From: Swaminathania salitolerans
Lineage (GTDB): Bacteria > Pseudomonadota > Alphaproteobacteria > Acetobacterales > Acetobacteraceae
Direction: 5' to 3'
Assembly: GCF_007988945.1 (NCBI RefSeq)
Contig: NZ_BJVC01000004.1
Location: forward strand, 124,001 to 188,000
Length of the DNA stretch: 64,000 nucleotides
Below are positions 31,436 to 39,413 of this stretch, one piece after another. The first letter of the stretch is position 1, and the number at the start of each line of letters is the position of its first letter. Position numbers and translations under genes: made by a program. The notes under the pieces are model-generated. The model had not been told where the DNA came from. It was given only the letters and a program-made list of their open reading frames with translations, and did not search any database.

Positions 31436-32491
31436 TCATCCGGGATCGCGCACGGCATCGACGAGCTGACCCACATGATCCGGCGACGTATCCGGCATCA
31501 CGCCATGACCGAGATTGAACACATGGGGTCTGCCCCGGAGCGGGTTCCTGATCCGGCGTACCTCGTCCGTGAGCGCCTGTCCGCCCGCACGCAGGATGAC
31601 CGGGTCGAGATTGCCCTGCAGGGCAAGCGTATCGGGAACGCGTTTCGCCAGCGCCGCCATATCGACGCTCGTATCGCAGGCCAGGGCATCGACGCCCGTT
31701 GCTTCGGCATATTCGATGGCCATGAGACCGGCGAGACGCGGAAAGCCGATGATGCGCGTACCGGGCCGGGCTGCACGGATCCCGGCGACGATCTCCCGGG
31801 TCGGTGCGATGACATGCCGACGGAACTGCGACGGTGGGAGAATGCCGGACCAGCTGTCGAACAGCATGACGGCATCGGCTCCGGCATCGATCTGTCCGAT
31901 GAGCATGTCGGTCGTGGTCCGGACCAGAAGGGCTATGAGATCGTCGAACAGGGCAGGATCCTGCAGTGCCATCGTCCGGGTCACGGCGAATTCGCGCGAA
32001 CTCCCCCCCTCGACCATGTAGCAGGCCACCGTGAACGGGCTTCCCGCAAAACCGAGAAGGGTGGTGCTCGCCGGCAGGTCTGTGCTCAGCCGACGCAGGG
32101 TCTCCTGGATGGGTGCCACCACCGAGGCCACCCTGTCCGGCGAAAGGGCCGCGAGCGCCTGACGGTTGCGGATCGGCTCCATGACCGGCCCGCGTCCCTC
32201 GATGAAGCGCAGATCCTGCCCCATGGCCCAGGGCAGGACCAGAATGTCGGAGAAGAGGATTGCCGCGTCCATGCCATAGCGGCGGATCGGCTGCATGGTC
32301 AGTTCGGTTGCGATGTCCGGTGTGGTACACCGCGTCAGGAAATCGGCCCTGGCCCGTTCCGCCCGGAATTCGGGAAGATAGCGCCCGGCCTGACGCATGA
32401 GCCAGACTGGCGGAGGCCAGACGGCCTCACCTGCCAGAACGCGCATCAGGGGTTTGGCCTGGGCCATACGGGGAGAAATTTCGCTATCCAT
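31436..32491 (-). CDS. hemE: Uroporphyrinogen decarboxylase
   Basis: Decarboxylates uroporphyrinogen III to coproporphyrinogen III. The 351-residue protein starts MDSEISPRMAQAKPLMRVLA at 32491; the open frame continues upstream to 32749 but that stretch is the putative origin region. Signatures are PVWLMRQAGRYLPEFRA, AAILFSDILVLPWAMG, LLGFAGSPFTVACYMVEGG and HVFNLGHGVMPDTSPDHV. It heads the run hemE-HAD-hemJ. Its promoter must lie in the 317-bp gap upstream, which is also the candidate oriC. Confidence 0.96.
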   Translation of the reverse strand: MDSEISPRMAQAKPLMRVLAGEAVWPPPVWLMRQAGRYLPEFRAERARADFLTRCTTPDIATELTMQPIRRYGMDAAILFSDILVLPWAMGQDLRFIEGRGPVMEPIRNRQALAALSPDRVASVVAPIQETLRRLSTDLPASTTLLGFAGSPFTVACYMVEGGSSREFAVTRTMALQDPALFDDLIALLVRTTTDMLIGQIDAGADAVMLFDSWSGILPPSQFRRHVIAPTREIVAGIRAARPGTRIIGFPRLAGLMAIEYAEATGVDALACDTSVDMAALAKRVPDTLALQGNLDPVILRAGGQALTDEVRRIRNPLRGRPHVFNLGHGVMPDTSPDHVGQLVDAVRDPG

Positions 32492-32808
32492 ACCGACCAA
32501 TAACCATGAAAGAAAAAAGAAAGATATCCTGTCGGATAGGTTGATCCCTGTGGATGACGGGGTACCCATCTTTCCGAAAACGTACCCCGACTTACCAACA
32601 CTGTGTACAAAGGATAAAGCCTTGCGTTTGAGGCACTTGCGTGAGTTATCCCGAAATACCCACAGAAGGCCTGTGTACAACCCACTGTTTTCCCGGGCGA
32701 AAGTACAATCCACGGTACTCGGTACCCCCGTCCCGATCCGGTCGTACAATCCCCATGTACCCCAGTACTGACGGTACTCTTCCCCCTTGTCCGAAAAGGA
32801 ACCCGATC
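32492..32808. other. Candidate chromosomal replication origin (oriC), hemE-maf gap
   Basis: Gene-free 317 bp. I see a purine/AT-rich stretch (32503-32530) and four DnaA-box-like sites against TTATCCACA. These are TCATCCACA on the minus strand (32549-32557, 8/9), TTATCCCGA (32646-32654, 7/9), ATACCCACA (32656-32664, 7/9) and a weaker minus-strand TTATCCTTT (32609-32617, 6/9). There are also 11 GTAC tetramers from 32562 to 32777. A hemE-linked origin is known in Caulobacter and other alphaproteobacteria. Function here is inference; the hemE and maf promoters must also lie in this gap. Confidence 0.55.
32562..32777. repeat. Cluster of GTAC-centred short repeats
   Basis: GTAC starts at 32562, 32582, 32605, 32675, 32703, 32715, 32722, 32744, 32757, 32765 and 32774. 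Extended copies recur: GTGTACAA at 32603 and 32673, GTACAATCC at 32703 and 32744, and ACGGTACTC at 32712 and 32771. One site would be expected in this length by chance. Spacing is irregular (7 to 70 bp). Confidence 0.9.
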
Positions 32809-33441
32809 ATGGAGTCGCATCAGACAGATCCTGCTCATGCGCGGCTTGTACTCGCCAGTGGATCCGCCGCGCGCCGGTCGCTTCTCGAGGATGCCGGGCT
32901 GACGATCGCAAGCTGCCCGGTGGATATCGACGAGGCCTCTTTTCGCGAGATGGCCCGTCGGAAAGGGACGGAGGAAGAGGCACTCGCTCTGGCGCTCGCT
33001 CATGCCAAAGCCCTAGGGTTTTTCAGGAATCACGCATTTACGAGCGCCGATTTCGTGATTGCGGCCGACCAGATCCTGTCCTGTGACGGTACCGGTTTCG
33101 ACAAGCCCGGATCACGGGCAGAAGCGCGGGACCAGCTCGCCCGTCTGAGGGGGCGTACGCATCGTCTTCACACGGCGCTCGTGCTGTACAGGGACGGAAA
33201 ATGCCTCTGGGAGCATGTCGAGACACCCTGTCTGACCATGCGCCGGTTTTCCGACGCCTTTCTGGACGCCTATCTCGCGCGGGAAGGAGACAGCGTGCTC
33301 TCCTGCGTCGGTGCCTATCGTCTCGAAGGAATGGGCGTACAGCTTTTCGAGCGCATTGCCGGGGCGCATGATGCGGTTCTCGGTCTTCCGCGACTGCCGC
33401 TGCTCTCTGTCCTGCGCGAATATGGCGTGGTGGAAAAATAG
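32809..33441 (+). CDS. maf: Maf-family nucleoside triphosphate pyrophosphatase
   Basis: 210-residue house-cleaning pyrophosphatase acting on non-canonical nucleotides; also linked to septum inhibition. It starts at ATG 32809 (MESHQTDPAHARLVLASGSA). Visible are the LASGSAARRSLLEDAGL substrate motif, the FVIAADQILSCDG catalytic loop, QLARLRGRTHRLHTAL and the SCVGAYRLEGMGVQLFERIA end. Preceded by AAAAGGAAC as ribosome-binding site. In other alphaproteobacteria maf near oriC is often followed by aroE-coaE-dnaQ; here a tRNA and an efflux operon follow instead. Confidence 0.94.
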   Translation: MESHQTDPAHARLVLASGSAARRSLLEDAGLTIASCPVDIDEASFREMARRKGTEEEALALALAHAKALGFFRNHAFTSADFVIAADQILSCDGTGFDKPGSRAEARDQLARLRGRTHRLHTALVLYRDGKCLWEHVETPCLTMRRFSDAFLDAYLAREGDSVLSCVGAYRLEGMGVQLFERIAGAHDAVLGLPRLPLLSVLREYGVVEK

Positions 33442-33523
33442 TGTTTTTTTGGGCTTGTCAGGCTGTTGGCCCCTCGCTATACCCGCGCCACCGGCCTGAC
33501 CCAAGAGGCCGGTCTGATCTGGC

Positions 33524-33599
33524 GGGGCCATAGCTCAGTTGGGAGAGCGCCTGAATGGCATTCAGGAGGTCGTCGGTTCGATTCCGATTGGCTCCACCA
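33524..33599 (+). tRNA. tRNA-Ala (anticodon GGC)
   Basis: 76-nt cloverleaf on the plus strand. The acceptor GGGGCCA pairs with TGGCTCC (one G-U), the D-arm AGCTCAGTTGGGAGAGC, anticodon stem CCTGA/TCAGG with anticodon GGC, T-arm GGTTCGATTCC, encoded CCA at 33597-33599. It reads GCC and GCT alanine codons and is very close in sequence to the tRNA-Ala(CGC) at 2239-2314, differing mainly in the anticodon arm. Confidence 0.96.
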
Positions 33600-33726
33600 A
33601 ATCCTCCGGCTTTCATCACAGGAAAACGGCGATACGCAAAGTATCGATTTTTTCTGTCTGTATAGTTGATATATAAACCACTCTTGTTCATAGTCCGGAA
33701 CCGTTTCCCAGATCCGGCGCAAGGTC

Positions 33727-34020
33727 ATGCACACGTTGAGAAGACTTTCCTCCTCTTTTCCCTCGCGAGAGGCGATCGCGCTTCTGACGATGGCGCCCGT
33801 TCTGGGCGGCTGCTCGCGCGCGCCGCTTCAGGATATCCTGGGCTCCTTCTTTCCGTCCTGGATGCTCTGCGCCTTTATCGGAACGATCGCGGCCGCCCTT
33901 CTGCGCGCGCTGCTCGGTGCGGCCGATATCCAGCAATCGGTTCCGCTTCCGATGCTGACCTATATCGCCTTCGCGACAGGTGTGACCTTTATCGTCTGGC
34001 TTTTCGTTTTCGGTCACTAG
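33727..34020 (+). CDS. ytcA: YtcA-like small lipoprotein of the MdtNOP operon
   Basis: 97-residue membrane protein. A signal-like N-terminus ends in a lipobox-like APVLGGC (cysteine at about residue 29). It is followed by two hydrophobic helices, PSWMLCAFIGTIAAALLRAL and MLTYIAFATGVTFIVWLFVF. Size, lipobox and helix layout match YtcA, which in E. coli lies beside mdtNOP. The next genes here are the MdtN, MdtO and MdtP homologues, 110 bp downstream. Function is unknown beyond this association. Confidence 0.72.
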   Translation: MHTLRRLSSSFPSREAIALLTMAPVLGGCSRAPLQDILGSFFPSWMLCAFIGTIAAALLRALLGAADIQQSVPLPMLTYIAFATGVTFIVWLFVFGH

Positions 34021-34130
34021 CCGGGCGAATGACGTTCTGCCGAAACCCCATTCAATGAGCCTCCCGGTTTCGGCCGGAGGCAGCCGGTCCGGCGCTTTGC
34101 GGTCCGGCAACGCTCAGGGAACAACCGGGC

Positions 34131-35153
34131 ATGCATGCGCTTTTCTCGCGGATCGGTGGCATCTCGATCCTGATCCTGTCTCTCGCGGCCTGTGCGATCG
34201 GCGGGTTTCTGGTGCTGGAGCGGCTCCATAGCCGACCGCGTACCGAAGATGCCTATCTCGCCGCCAACATCGTTCACATGGCGCCCGAGATAAGCGGCCG
34301 GATCGTGTCCCTGCCCATTCATGACAATGAACGCGTCGTCCGCGGTCAGATCCTGTTCGTGATCGATCCCGAACCCTACACCTACCGCGTGCAGAAGGCG
34401 CGCGCCCAGGTCCAGACGATCCAGGCGCAGATCGATATCCAGACACGTCAGGTGGAATCCCAGGTCTCTCACGCCGGGGCGGAAGCAAGCTCGGTCACGG
34501 GGGCGCGCGCGCGTCTTGCGCTCGCACGCGCAACGCAGGCGCGGCTCGCACCGCTTGAAAAACAGGGTTTCGTCACGCGGGAGGCGCTCGATCAGGCCAG
34601 AACGGAGACAAGCACAGCAGAGGCCAATCTGGCGTCCGCACAGCACGCAGCACAGGCAGCGCGCCAGGCCGTGCGCAGCGTTGCGCCGCTCCGTGCCGAT
34701 CTGGCTTCCGCCCAGGCGGTTCTGCGAGAGGCGGAACGTGATCTGCGCCTGACCACCGTGCGGGCGCCCTGTGACGGCATCGTCACGGATATGACGATCG
34801 CCGCGGGCGAATATGCGACGACCGGCAAGCCGCTCTTTACCCTCGTGGATGACGAGGCCTGGTGGGCCATCGCCAATTTCCGCGAAACGCAGCTCCCGGG
34901 GCTTTCCATAGGCCAGAAGGTGAAGGTCTTTGCCATGGCCCGGCCCGACCGGCCGATCACCGGCACGCTCGAGAGCATCAATGCCGGCGTCCTGCCCGAC
35001 GAGGGCGTAAGCGCGAACGGCCTGCCCAAGGTGCCGCGAAGCCTCAACTGGGTGCGGATCGCACAGCGTTTCCCGGTCAGGATCAGGCTGGACGACCCGC
35101 CGACGGATCTGATGCGTATCGGGGCGACGGTCGTTGTGGTCGTGATGCGATGA
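34131..35153 (+). CDS. mdtN: HlyD/MdtN-type membrane fusion protein
   Basis: 340-residue periplasmic adaptor. A single N-terminal helix (GISILILSLAACAIGGFLVL) precedes AYLAANIVHMAPEISGRIVS (first barrel-sandwich half), a coiled-coil hairpin of about residues 85-200, and the second half LTTVRAPCDGIVTDMTIAAG. The MdtN/EmrA-like WWAIANFRETQLPGLSIGQK segment follows. Its stop overlaps the FUSC gene start (ATGA at 35150). It works with the FUSC permease and outer-membrane factor downstream. Confidence 0.92.
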   Translation: MHALFSRIGGISILILSLAACAIGGFLVLERLHSRPRTEDAYLAANIVHMAPEISGRIVSLPIHDNERVVRGQILFVIDPEPYTYRVQKARAQVQTIQAQIDIQTRQVESQVSHAGAEASSVTGARARLALARATQARLAPLEKQGFVTREALDQARTETSTAEANLASAQHAAQAARQAVRSVAPLRADLASAQAVLREAERDLRLTTVRAPCDGIVTDMTIAAGEYATTGKPLFTLVDDEAWWAIANFRETQLPGLSIGQKVKVFAMARPDRPITGTLESINAGVLPDEGVSANGLPKVPRSLNWVRIAQRFPVRIRLDDPPTDLMRIGATVVVVVMR

Positions 35154-37336
35154 GAGCGGCGCGGCAGGTGCTCGAATCGCCCCTGCGGCGCGGGTACGAG
35201 ATGTCTTCGGTTCCGGCCTTCCTGATGAAGGAAATGGCATCGGTTCCGGGGCGTGCGCGAAACACGGCCCTGCTGATCGCCCAGGTGGTCGTGACGATCC
35301 TGATCGGCGAGACCTTCCGGATTCCCGATCTTCCCGTACTCGTGTTCATCTGCTTTTTTCTTTCGGGAAACGATGCCGCATCCAATACCAGCACGGCGCT
35401 GATGGCCGGGCTGGTGATCGTTGCGGGCACGGCGCTGACCATCGTGCTCCTCATGGTCAGTCTGTCCGAACCCGGACTGCGTCTCCCGCTCATGCTGTTG
35501 CTGACCCTTGCGGCGGGTTTTTTCTCCCAGGCCATGACGATGGGCGCGCTGGCCAATATCCTCCTGTTCTGGATCGTCTATATGGCGATGAATGCCGATC
35601 TTCTGGAATCGGTCGGCTACGCACTCAATGGATATGTCGGCAACACCACCGGGAGCGTCATTCCCGATGCGGCCTATCTGCCGCCCGAGGAATCGTTGCT
35701 GCATCTGCTCTTGTGGATCGGCGCGGTTTTCATGATCTCGCTTGCGATCATCGCCATCGCCAACAAACTGGCGGGGCACGACCCCCTGACCATGCTGCGC
35801 GGCGGTATCGTCGCACGGCTCGAGGCGGTTTCGCGCTTCTGCACCACCGGGGGAGAGGCGCGAGACGCGGCCACCGCCGATCTGGCGGGGCTGGCCGAAC
35901 AGGGCGTTGCCGGGCTGAGAAGCCTGTTCGATCTGAGCAGCAAGCTTCATCCCGATCTGCCGCGTCATCATCTCGGTCTTGCCATGATCCGCACGCTTGC
36001 CCGTCTGGTGATGATCATGATGGCATGGAGCCGCCTGCGTAAGCCCGGAGATGAGGCGTTTCTCCATCGTATAGGAGACGCCGTGCGCGTATTGCTGGAT
36101 CTGTGCCAGCCCGGAACAAATGCCGGAAAGGGCGCCGGATTCGACGAGACCGGGCTGCACGACTCCGCCGGACAGTTCCGGGACGATCCCGTTCTCTTTC
36201 CCCTCGCGCTCGAACTGGTGCGCTGCCTGACCGTCATCCAGGCCCTGCTGGTCAAGCCGGATCGGGCGGGCGACGCTCTCGCACCGGAAATCCGGGCCGC
36301 GACGAAAAACATCTTCAAGCCGGATGCCTTCACCAATCCGGCCTATCCGCGTGCGGCGATCCGTATCGCCCTGTCCGTCGTGATCTGTTACGCGATCACG
36401 CGTTTCACGGCGTGGCCGGGGATCCAGACCTGTGTCGTGACCTGTTTTCTCGTCTCGCTCGGCACGATCGGCGACAGCGTCCACAAGATGCTTCTCAGGA
36501 TCAGCGGCGCGCTCATCGGCGCCTTTTTCGGGATCGGAACGATCCTCGTCATCATGCCCCATCTGGTCAATGTCATGGATCTGCTGCTGGCGGTTCTGCC
36601 CGTCGCGGCTCTGGCGGGATGGGTCAAGAGCGGCAGCGAGCGGATTTCCTATGCCGGCGTGCAGATCTCCATGGCCTATTTCATGACGATCCTTCAGGGA
36701 TACGGGCCGACGCTCGACATGGAGACGGCGCGCAATCGCGTGGTCGGCATTCTGATCGGCAATGTCATCGTCTATCTGATGTCTGCCCTGCTCTGGCCGG
36801 TCAGCACCACGAATATCGCCCGACGTCATCTGACTGCTGCGGTGCGTCAGTTCGCGACGCTCCTCGCCTTGCGTCGCGCGAGACCGGACGCGCTCGTCGA
36901 TATCGCACAGGAAACGGAGCGCGAGAAATTCGGTCGGGCGATCGCCACCACGCGCACGGCACTCCAGAACGCGCCTTTCGAGGAGGAGCGCCTGCGGAAT
37001 GCGTCGGATGCGCCAGACGTCACCCCCCGCCTCGTTACGGAGATCCAGATGATCGCCATTCCTGTCGCCGTTCTTTCCGATCTCGGCCGGGATCCCACGC
37101 CCGGGGCCAAAGCGCATATCGAGGCAATGCAGACCTGGTTTTCCGGCTTTGCCGACTGGCTCGACGGGGCGCGCGATGCACGCGATCTCATGGGCGCCCT
37201 GCCTGCTGCGCCCGCTCTTCCCGACGATCCCGAGCGCGAAGCCTGGTTCGGCCTTCTGGAGTCCCGTCTGAAACGTATTCTCGACGCGTGCGCGCCTGAG
37301 GCGGAAGCGGTCGCAGAGGGAGCCGCATCGTCATGA
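35150..37336 (+). CDS. mdtO: FUSC-family MdtO-like inner-membrane efflux protein
   Basis: 728-residue inner-membrane component of an aromatic-acid or dye exporter. It has two groups of membrane helices, residues about 40-180 (LPVLVFICFFLSGNDAASNT, LPLMLLLTLAAGFFSQAMTM) and about 410-560 (AIRIALSVVICYAITRFTAW, IQTCVVTCFLVSLGTIGDSV). The second holds the conserved IQTCxxTCFxVxLG motif of the FUSC domain. A soluble C-terminal region follows. The start ATG at 35150 is inside the mdtN stop overlap. A longer frame open from 34862 is shadow of mdtN. Confidence 0.92.
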   Translation: MRAARQVLESPLRRGYEMSSVPAFLMKEMASVPGRARNTALLIAQVVVTILIGETFRIPDLPVLVFICFFLSGNDAASNTSTALMAGLVIVAGTALTIVLLMVSLSEPGLRLPLMLLLTLAAGFFSQAMTMGALANILLFWIVYMAMNADLLESVGYALNGYVGNTTGSVIPDAAYLPPEESLLHLLLWIGAVFMISLAIIAIANKLAGHDPLTMLRGGIVARLEAVSRFCTTGGEARDAATADLAGLAEQGVAGLRSLFDLSSKLHPDLPRHHLGLAMIRTLARLVMIMMAWSRLRKPGDEAFLHRIGDAVRVLLDLCQPGTNAGKGAGFDETGLHDSAGQFRDDPVLFPLALELVRCLTVIQALLVKPDRAGDALAPEIRAATKNIFKPDAFTNPAYPRAAIRIALSVVICYAITRFTAWPGIQTCVVTCFLVSLGTIGDSVHKMLLRISGALIGAFFGIGTILVIMPHLVNVMDLLLAVLPVAALAGWVKSGSERISYAGVQISMAYFMTILQGYGPTLDMETARNRVVGILIGNVIVYLMSALLWPVSTTNIARRHLTAAVRQFATLLALRRARPDALVDIAQETEREKFGRAIATTRTALQNAPFEEERLRNASDAPDVTPRLVTEIQMIAIPVAVLSDLGRDPTPGAKAHIEAMQTWFSGFADWLDGARDARDLMGALPAAPALPDDPEREAWFGLLESRLKRILDACAPEAEAVAEGAASS

Positions 37337-38970
37337 CCACCGGATACGAAGGCCCGAACACCATGCCCCGAAAAACAGATCGTCCGGCCCGTCATGGCCG
37401 GTCGCATCCTGTCTCCGTCCGGCGCGTCATGGGACCGGGCGCGATGAGGCGGATCGCACTGCTTCCGGTGGCGGGGCTTATGGCCGGATGCAACGATACG
37501 CGCGACCTTGCGCCCGGATCGTCAGATCATGCCTGGCGACCGGTGAACCGCGCCGGGCTGAGTCTGCCGCCCGATATCCGCAACCCGGCCCGGTCCGACA
37601 TTGCGGGACCGATCGTTCCCGGGAGCATCCGGGAGGGAAAGATCCTGCCGGAGGAAACCCGTCAGCCGGTAGGGCTGGCCGAGCTGATCGATTTTGCGCA
37701 GCGTAACAACCCGGAAACGCGGATCGCATGGCAACGTGCCCGTCAGGCCGCGATCGGGGTCGGTATCGCCCGTGCGGCCCTGTTGCCGCAGCTCACCCTT
37801 TCGGTGATGGGCGGATTCCAGCGCATGGCGCTTCCCTTGCCGAATTATCTCTCGAGCCGTGGCTATCTGACTTCGAACGGTGCTGCGGTCTTCCCGAAAC
37901 TGGAGCTGGAGTATCTTCTCTTCGATTTCGGGCGTACGAAGGCGCATATAGATGAGGCGCAGTTCCAGACCCTGGCCGCGAATTTCGGATTCACGGCGGT
38001 CCATCAGCAGCTGATCCTGGACGTGATCAGTGCGTATCGTGCCTATCAGGCCGCGCAGGCCATCGCCTCGGCCGCGCAGAAAGCCGTCGAGAACATGGCG
38101 CTTCTCCTGCGTGCGGCCGAAGCCCGTCGCGCTCATGGCGAAGCGACCGTGACCGATGTCGCGACAGCGCAGCGTAATCTGGCACAGGCCCGCTTCGATC
38201 TCGACAAGGCGAAGGATGGAGAGCATGCGGCGCGTCATGCCCTGCTCGAGGTCGCCGGATTGCCGGCGACCCTGTCCCTGCGCATTGCACCCATGAATGC
38301 GGCCCGGCTGCCCCGTGCCGGAAAAGACGAAATCCGTCAGCTCGTGGATCGGGCCCTGGCGTCGCGCCCCGATCTCATGGCGGATATCGCCCGGCTCCGG
38401 GCTCAGGATGCCGCCGTTGCCGGGTCCAGGGCGGCTCTGAGGCCGAAGATCTCGTTCGCCGGAACGGCGCAGGGATATCTCGGGGCGCTCAAATCCTATG
38501 GCACGGGACGGTCCGCCCCGGCTTCGGCGATTGCCCAGCCCGAAGCCGGCGTGTTCATGCAGATGAGCTGGCCGATCTATCAGGGCGGCTTGCGATCCAA
38601 CGCCATTCATATGGCCGAATCCAGACGGGACGCAGCCCGGGCGACGCTTCTCAAGGACAGGTTGCAGGTGGAGAGACAGGTGGCCGACAGCCAGGATGCG
38701 CTCGAAACCGCGCTCGTTCAGGTGAAATCGGCCCGCGTACTGAACGAGGCGGCCATCATTGCGAATGAGGGGGCGGCTCAGGCCTATCGTCATGGCGTGG
38801 GCACGATTACCGATGCTTCCAGCGCGGCGGCAGCGCTTTTCGAGGCTCAGGCCTCCCTTGCGGTCAGCATCTCCCAGGCATTCACCCGGGCTGCCTCCCT
38901 CGCACATGCGACGGGGCAGCTCGATCTGGGTGCGAACACGACACAGGAAGGAGGGGAAAACCTGCCGTGA
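37333..38970 (+). CDS. mdtP: MdtP-type outer-membrane efflux lipoprotein
   Basis: TolC-family outer-membrane factor of the MdtNOP pump, up to 545 residues. Two efflux domains are visible (LIDFAQRNNPETRIAWQRAR and ASRPDLMADIARLRAQDAAV). The lipobox is LMAGCNDT after MRRIALLPVAGLMAGC. The ATG at 37333 overlaps the mdtO stop (ATGA), but a second ATG at 37444 would start right at the lipoprotein signal, so the true start is open. The 37-residue extension is basic and unlike a signal. Confidence 0.92.
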   Translation: MTTGYEGPNTMPRKTDRPARHGRSHPVSVRRVMGPGAMRRIALLPVAGLMAGCNDTRDLAPGSSDHAWRPVNRAGLSLPPDIRNPARSDIAGPIVPGSIREGKILPEETRQPVGLAELIDFAQRNNPETRIAWQRARQAAIGVGIARAALLPQLTLSVMGGFQRMALPLPNYLSSRGYLTSNGAAVFPKLELEYLLFDFGRTKAHIDEAQFQTLAANFGFTAVHQQLILDVISAYRAYQAAQAIASAAQKAVENMALLLRAAEARRAHGEATVTDVATAQRNLAQARFDLDKAKDGEHAARHALLEVAGLPATLSLRIAPMNAARLPRAGKDEIRQLVDRALASRPDLMADIARLRAQDAAVAGSRAALRPKISFAGTAQGYLGALKSYGTGRSAPASAIAQPEAGVFMQMSWPIYQGGLRSNAIHMAESRRDAARATLLKDRLQVERQVADSQDALETALVQVKSARVLNEAAIIANEGAAQAYRHGVGTITDASSAAAALFEAQASLAVSISQAFTRAASLAHATGQLDLGANTTQEGGENLP

Positions 38971-39413
38971 CAGAGGAACCGACAGAACGCGCAACGATCG
39001 GACGCATGATCAACCTGATCGCGCGGCGATGGAGACAGAGGCTGGATGAACGGTTGCAGCCCTTCGACCTGACGGATGCGCTCTGGCTGCCGATGCTCGA
39101 GATCAAGCGTCAGGGGGGCGCGCTTCATCCCAAGGAGATCGCCGATGCGCTCCGGCTTGACAAATCGACGATGGTGCGCACCCTCCGCACTCTGGAGGAC
39201 AGGGGCTTCGTCATCAAGACGCCGGACGAAGCCGATCGCAGAGCCTATTACGTCACCCTGACCGAAGAGGGCATATCGCGACTGGATGACGTCCTGCGTC
39301 TGTCGCGTATCATCGAAGACCGCGTTCTGCGCGATATCCCGGATATCGAGCTCGGCACCCTGCGCCGCCTCCTCGGGACCATTCATGCAGTATTGGAGGA
39401 GGACGGCAGGTAA
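38967..39413 (+). CDS. MarR-family regulator of the efflux operon
   Basis: 148-residue winged-helix regulator starting at GTG 38967 (MTEEPTERATIGRMINLIAR), overlapping the mdtP stop by 4 bp. The MarR core reads LHPKEIADALRLDKSTMVRT, then LRTLEDRGFVIKTPDEADRR and AYYVTLTEEGIS (wing). Being the last gene of the same transcript as the pump, it is well placed to autoregulate export of an aromatic compound. The ligand is not known. Upstream operator sites near 33700-34130 were not clear to me. Confidence 0.92.
   Translation: MTEEPTERATIGRMINLIARRWRQRLDERLQPFDLTDALWLPMLEIKRQGGALHPKEIADALRLDKSTMVRTLRTLEDRGFVIKTPDEADRRAYYVTLTEEGISRLDDVLRLSRIIEDRVLRDIPDIELGTLRRLLGTIHAVLEEDGR

Follow-up and report, generated by a model that had tools for sequence, protein, structure and literature searches.

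A conserved GTAC array at the hemE-linked chromosome origin of acetic acid bacteria as probable methylation sites of an orphan methyltransferase

We report that the gene-free gap between hemE and maf in the analysed window (a stretch of 64,000 nucleotides, G000:C4:124001-188000, from a genome of 2.92 Mb in 9 contigs) holds the chromosome origin and a dense array of GTAC tetramers; that the gap is oriC and that its array is conserved is, taken jointly, virtually certain. We consider it likely that this array supplies the methylation sites of an orphan methyltransferase, and that the two would form a methylation switch analogous to the Dam/SeqA/GATC system, albeit assembled from different parts.

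The hemE-linked origin and its GTAC array

The gap directly adjoins hemE, as expected of an alphaproteobacterial hemE-linked origin, and the HemE protein of this genome is 81-83% identical to that of Asaia, which makes its bearer an Asaia-like acetic acid bacterium (AAB). The features of the locus are listed below; hemE upstream regions were compared from 110 loci, and the conservation given for each GTAC refers to a site alignment of 26 diverse AAB origins.

31436-32491, minus strand: hemE (uroporphyrinogen decarboxylase; Pfam URO-D, E 3.6e-112), left flank of the origin
32492-32808, unstranded: oriC region, gene-free 317-bp gap with the GTAC array (GC skew minimum, conservation, anatomy)
32500-32545, unstranded: AT-rich candidate unwinding element beside hemE, with a T/C-rich run kept on the hemE strand (AT content, alignment)
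32549-32557, minus strand: DnaA-box-like TCATCCACA adjoining the AT-rich element; CCACAG core kept in most AAB
32562-32565, unstranded: GTAC site 1 (GGGTACCCC, adjoining the DnaA box), 26/26 AAB; in basal enzyme-positive genomes, usually the one GTAC still present
32582-32585, unstranded: GTAC site 2 (GGGGTAC), 26/26 AAB
32602-32610, minus strand: DnaA-box-like TTGTACACA containing GTAC site 3 (32605-32608), GTAC in 24/26
32672-32680, minus strand: DnaA-box-like TTGTACACA containing GTAC site 4 (32675-32678), GTAC in 26/26
32703-32706, unstranded: GTAC site 5, aligned in 6/26
32715-32725, unstranded: GTAC sites 6 and 7 (GTACCGAGTAC, hemE strand), 23/26 and 22/26
32744-32768, unstranded: GTAC sites 8, 9 and 10 (GTACTGGGGTACATGGGGATTGTAC block, hemE strand), 22/26, 25/26 and 19/26
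32774-32777, unstranded: GTAC site 11, aligned in 5/26
32809-33441, plus strand: maf (Pfam Maf, E 7.7e-44), right flank of the origin

Beyond maf the window continues with an efflux-type operon (33441-39000; HlyD-like, FUSC-like and TolC-like proteins, named from sequence only), and aroE-coaE-dnaQ, the usual genes after maf expected from other alphaproteobacteria, do not lie 3' of it in the window.

An earlier note on this DNA had singled out the gap as a candidate oriC, with an AT-rich segment by hemE, DnaA-box-like sites (one 8/9, two 7/9) and 11 GTAC in 216 bp, and had suggested that GC skew and the conservation of the GTAC sites in relatives be checked; the features it described are confirmed by our results, and both checks came out in its favour. 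On the gap's own contig the GC skew passes from negative to positive (block-permutation p < 1 in 2,000); in 1-kb bins its cumulative minimum falls at ~162 kb, the gap itself lying at 156.5 kb. In the complete genome of a relative, G024, samples of the skew gave -0.090 at 1.785 Mb and +0.113 at 1.870 Mb; it is positive from ~1.872-1.873 Mb and the array lies at 1.8743 Mb, which places the sign change within ~2 kb of the array. The skew minimum of G045, sampled at low resolution, falls roughly 0.1 Mb or less from hemE. The segment at 32500-32530 is 74% AT, as against 37% for the window. The DnaA-box-like sites of the gap comprise TCATCCACA (8/9), the two copies of TTGTACACA (7/9 to TTATCCACA; 8/9 to TTATNCACA, from which it is one base apart) and weaker ones, while a perfect TTATCCACA occurs as a single copy in 2 of 28 array origins and is otherwise absent from them. 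High-affinity DnaA boxes with a G as their third base are known from actinomycetes (TTGTCCACA; PMC4285127).

The skew minimum and the conserved origin anatomy, along with the hemE-linked origins known from Caulobacter and Rickettsia (PMC1914354), hence support the assignment of the gap as oriC. Like those origins, it lies beside hemE and has DnaA-box-like sites and an AT-rich element, and the genome carries a CcrM gene; unlike them, it has a dense GTAC array in place of a CtrA site, and the COG1806 gene is absent between hemE and maf. A CtrA-type origin was considered and rejected, and the gap is not classified as CtrA-controlled, because the TTAA-N7-TTAA site was found neither in the gap nor in any of the 28 array origins.

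The exact count in the 317-bp gap is 11 GTAC, with the first base at 32562 and the last at 32777, making it the commonest tetramer there. Dinucleotide-preserving shuffles of the gap yielded a mean of 1.98 and a maximum of 7, none of the 20,000 reaching 11. Elsewhere on the 274.6-kb contig the densest 216-bp stretch holds 4, and across the whole genome 11 GTAC triples were found, seven inside the gap and the other four isolated. The cluster in the gap is the sole one of its kind in the genome. Conservation is confined to the 4-bp palindrome: among the window's 11 sites each position of GTAC carries 2 bits, whereas the flanks are nearly empty of information (~0.1 bit, with a range of 0.03-0.36 bits per position). 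That GTAC alone is specified is what one would predict of a methylation target that is a 4-bp palindrome. The recurring longer forms pointed out in the earlier note do exist as words but do not extend to a longer motif, and a longer transcription factor motif around GTAC was rejected on the same grounds.

The orphan methyltransferase and its predicted specificity

The window genome codes for three methyltransferases, namely CcrM (beside rnhB), a 982-aa enzyme and a 292-aa enzyme, the last of which is the candidate for acting on the array:

G000:C1:798280-799155, outside the window, after mltA: orphan methyltransferase, 292 aa (PF01555, N6_N4_Mtase)

With its near-invariant TSPPYN and DPFxGTGT motifs, it is a beta-class SPPY-type N6_N4_Mtase, as M.RsaI-type enzymes are, and its best solved relative is a cytosine-N4 methyltransferase. 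The orthologues share 55-83% identity and always occur beside tim44/mltA, in the order secB-tim44-mltA-enzyme-smr; no endonuclease gene was seen next to the enzyme in 13 neighbourhoods. In G009 the gene is found ~6 kb from hemE. Away from Acetobacteraceae chromosomes, nothing beyond ~31% identity was recovered outside the family among 385 members of the class. CcrM was also considered as the enzyme of the array and rejected: its target, GANTC, is not enriched, with 2.9 occurrences per 409 bp in origins that carry the array and 3.3 in enzyme-negative ones.

Beyond Acetobacteraceae, the closest relative is encoded by a metagenomic phage (50% identity), followed by one on a Paracoccus plasmid (49%) and by cyanophage enzymes at 43-45%. 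In the cyanophages ACG-2014j and Syn19 the gene preceding the methyltransferase is annotated by the depositors as the R.RsaI endonuclease, and Syn2 displays the same pair, unannotated; RsaI cuts GTAC. These gene pairs are compact, spanning 2008-3286 of L370 (Synechococcus phage ACG-2014j) and 1474-2774 of L374 (cyanophage Syn2), and the phage gene annotated as R.RsaI matched no family in Pfam, NCBIfam or PHROGs. In a tree that does not include M.RsaI itself, the AAB enzymes cluster with the phage methyltransferases beside R.RsaI-annotated genes (99/98), and CcrM and the relatives at ~30% fall outside this group. M.RsaI has been assigned m4C at GTAC (PMC6256690), and orphan m4C GTAC enzymes are described as persistent in some archaea (PMC10609329). 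Given the phage pairs and these two precedents, we strongly infer GTAC specificity and an m4C mark for the AAB enzyme, and GTAC would thus be, with high probability, its substrate.

The AAB enzymes resemble M.RsaI and the phage pairs in methyltransferase subfamily, with 43-45% identity to cyanophage enzymes of which two are paired with R.RsaI-annotated genes, but differ from the RsaI systems in that they have no endonuclease gene beside them, are vertically inherited at a fixed locus and have their target clustered at oriC. By description, they are also comparable to the archaeal enzymes HG10 and HG18, which are orphan, lineage-persistent and directed at GTAC with an m4C mark (predicted in the case of the AAB enzyme); no origin array like that of AAB is described for HG10 and HG18 in the part of PMC10609329 consulted. 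For AAB, a literature search covering GTAC, methylomes and oriC returned nothing.

Conservation, displacement and joint loss of array and enzyme

The array is conserved across the 26 diverse AAB origins, which have 6-15 GTAC each. Three of the window's 11 sites are kept in all 26, one in 25 and one in 24; a further four are aligned in 19-23 of these origins and the remaining two in 5-6. No copies of the array were found on plasmids by blastn.

In Bombella and Saccharibacter there is no array between hemE and maf. Instead, the origin-core pattern gives one match per genome, away from hemE, in eight of nine Bombella/Saccharibacter-type genomes, the ninth (G088) having a second, weaker match. In the Bombella genome G031 the array is located at C21:59534-59742 (L260 = G031:C21:50001-70000), ~26 kb from hemE. 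It adjoins a gene for a GMC-type oxidoreductase there, near rho, and moved arrays were likewise seen in G082-G088 and G094. The array therefore moves INDEPENDENTLY of hemE and maf, and the shift in the Bombella/Saccharibacter-type genomes was probably a single local rearrangement.

METHYLTRANSFERASE, the orphan SPPY-type enzyme, tracks the array across Acetobacteraceae. In 85 genomes, with moved arrays scored as present, 37 have both enzyme and array, 35 have neither and 13 have the enzyme without the array; the converse, an array in a genome lacking the enzyme, does not occur. The comparison yields three independent phylogenetic pairs, and all informative ones point in the same direction (p 0.25); the co-occurrence is mostly shared descent. 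The 13 enzyme-positive genomes lack the array at hemE, a part of them having been searched for a moved array, and most keep 1-4 GTAC there, usually by the DnaA box on the unwinding side (GGGTACCCCGTTATCCACAGG). This retention suggests a simple ancestral GTAC state that would have been expanded later in AAB. A GTAC is also retained at the conserved DnaA-box position in the enzyme-negative L028, L102 and L111. Two further enzyme-negative origins, L096 and L101 (from MAGs, close to G016), have 3-4 GTAC, a pattern that may reflect assembly gaps or recent loss of the enzyme.

Two genomes, G338 (100% complete) and G028 (98% complete), have neither enzyme nor array. At their enzyme locus secB-tim44-smr is intact, and mltA and the enzyme gene are gone. 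As the HemE tree alone does not place them firmly (AU p 0.39), we built a concatenated tree, in which they are sister to Bombella within AAB (100/99) and the AU test rejects topologies that keep them apart from the enzyme-positive AAB (p 5e-142). The joint loss of enzyme and array is a single event common to these sister lineages, and mltA was lost along with them. Presence of mltA alone does not go with the array: G015 and Belnapia have mltA and neither the enzyme nor the array. The hemE-maf gap of G338 (L327/L368) contains ten perfect TTATCCACA boxes in about 210 bp and no GTAC, and that of G028 has two perfect TTATCCACA boxes and one GTAC. G338, an AAB without the methyltransferase, thus has an unusually dense DnaA array.

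A proposed methylation switch and its alternatives

GATC is over-represented at the E. coli oriC, and origin control by clustered methylation sites has been described for the few proteobacteria with Dam and SeqA (PMC4285127). We posit that in AAB the orphan enzyme would methylate N4 of the GTAC cytosine in each strand, so that replication of the origin would leave its 11 sites hemimethylated until the enzyme acts again. As the GTAC sites lie inside or beside DnaA-box-like sites and by the unwinding element, their methylation state would alter the binding of DnaA or of a putative reader protein, and the mark could thereby license or delay re-initiation, directly via DnaA or via the reader, as Dam/SeqA/GATC does in E. 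coli. Methylation would probably affect initiation, and sequestration of the SeqA kind is put forward more tentatively.

The parallel with E. coli extends to an orphan methyltransferase that co-occurs with the array and to a 4-bp palindromic, putatively methylated target strongly enriched at oriC and overlapping or adjoining DnaA sites. The two differ in that the target is GTAC rather than GATC, and the enzyme an SPPY-type member of the N6_N4_Mtase family (PF01555), with m4C as the predicted mark, rather than Dam, which makes m6A. Moreover, the organisms belong to different classes of Proteobacteria. The AAB system is thus, by analogy, one that would work like Dam/SeqA/GATC, but, since site and enzyme differ and no SeqA counterpart is named, it is not a member of it. 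We lean, by a small degree, towards the broader proposal that AAB evolved an independent m4C-based control of initiation, comprising the orphan RsaI-type enzyme, the GTAC array of oriC and a putative reader, which would have converged on Dam/SeqA/GATC and, upon loss of the enzyme, given way to a plain array of DnaA boxes.

The earlier note had suggested a binding array for an origin regulator, which was right in spirit, although the evidence favours sites of the orphan methyltransferase over those of a conventional protein. An origin-binding protein that contacts the GTAC sites directly, with the methyltransferase merely co-inherited, would account for an array that is both conserved and confined to the origin, and it draws some strength from the predominance of shared descent in the co-occurrence and from GTAC methylation being a prediction. 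However, recognition of 4 bp with no information in the flanks typifies methylation sites and would be unusual in a binding protein, the array was lost jointly with the enzyme, and the enzyme's phage relatives are linked to genes annotated as R.RsaI, a GTAC endonuclease; hence, we regard direct binding as unlikely. Likewise improbable is that the GTAC sites are lineage-specific DnaA sites and the array a DnaA array. The two conserved TTGTACACA are indeed 8/9 boxes, TTGTCCACA is of high affinity in actinomycetes (PMC4285127), and array origins are nearly devoid of the perfect TTATCCACA that is present ten times in the enzyme-less G338; nevertheless, most GTACs (GGGGTAC, GAGTAC, AGTACTG) do not look like DnaA boxes, no GTAC lies within the conserved TCATCCACA, and the flanks are not kept as those of a 9-mer would be.

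The earlier note had also entertained haem- or metal-responsive control of hemE and maf through the array. Such an operator has the position between two divergent genes in its favour, but it is excluded as a practical matter, its probability being negligible, because the array is displaced in Bombella (~26 kb, with none left between the two genes) and Saccharibacter; the array also marks the skew switch. Chance, a local bias in sequence or a recent duplication is an equally negligible explanation of the array: a few longer words do occur twice in the gap, but the shuffles never reproduced the count and the positions are kept across AAB genera.

If the proposed methylation switch is real, the logic of clustered methylation at origins can evolve anew with a different site, enzyme and, probably, mark (m4C); persistent orphan m4C enzymes would gain a concrete role, and G338 and G028 would represent a natural loss experiment. 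The origin is now marked in bacteria of industrial interest (vinegar, cellulose, vitamin C and bee-gut strains), which is useful for plasmid and genome engineering. Finally, in the enzyme-negative G044 (L341) the 409 bp upstream of hemE contain ten GATC, which could be a Dam-like origin array of a different Acetobacteraceae lineage.
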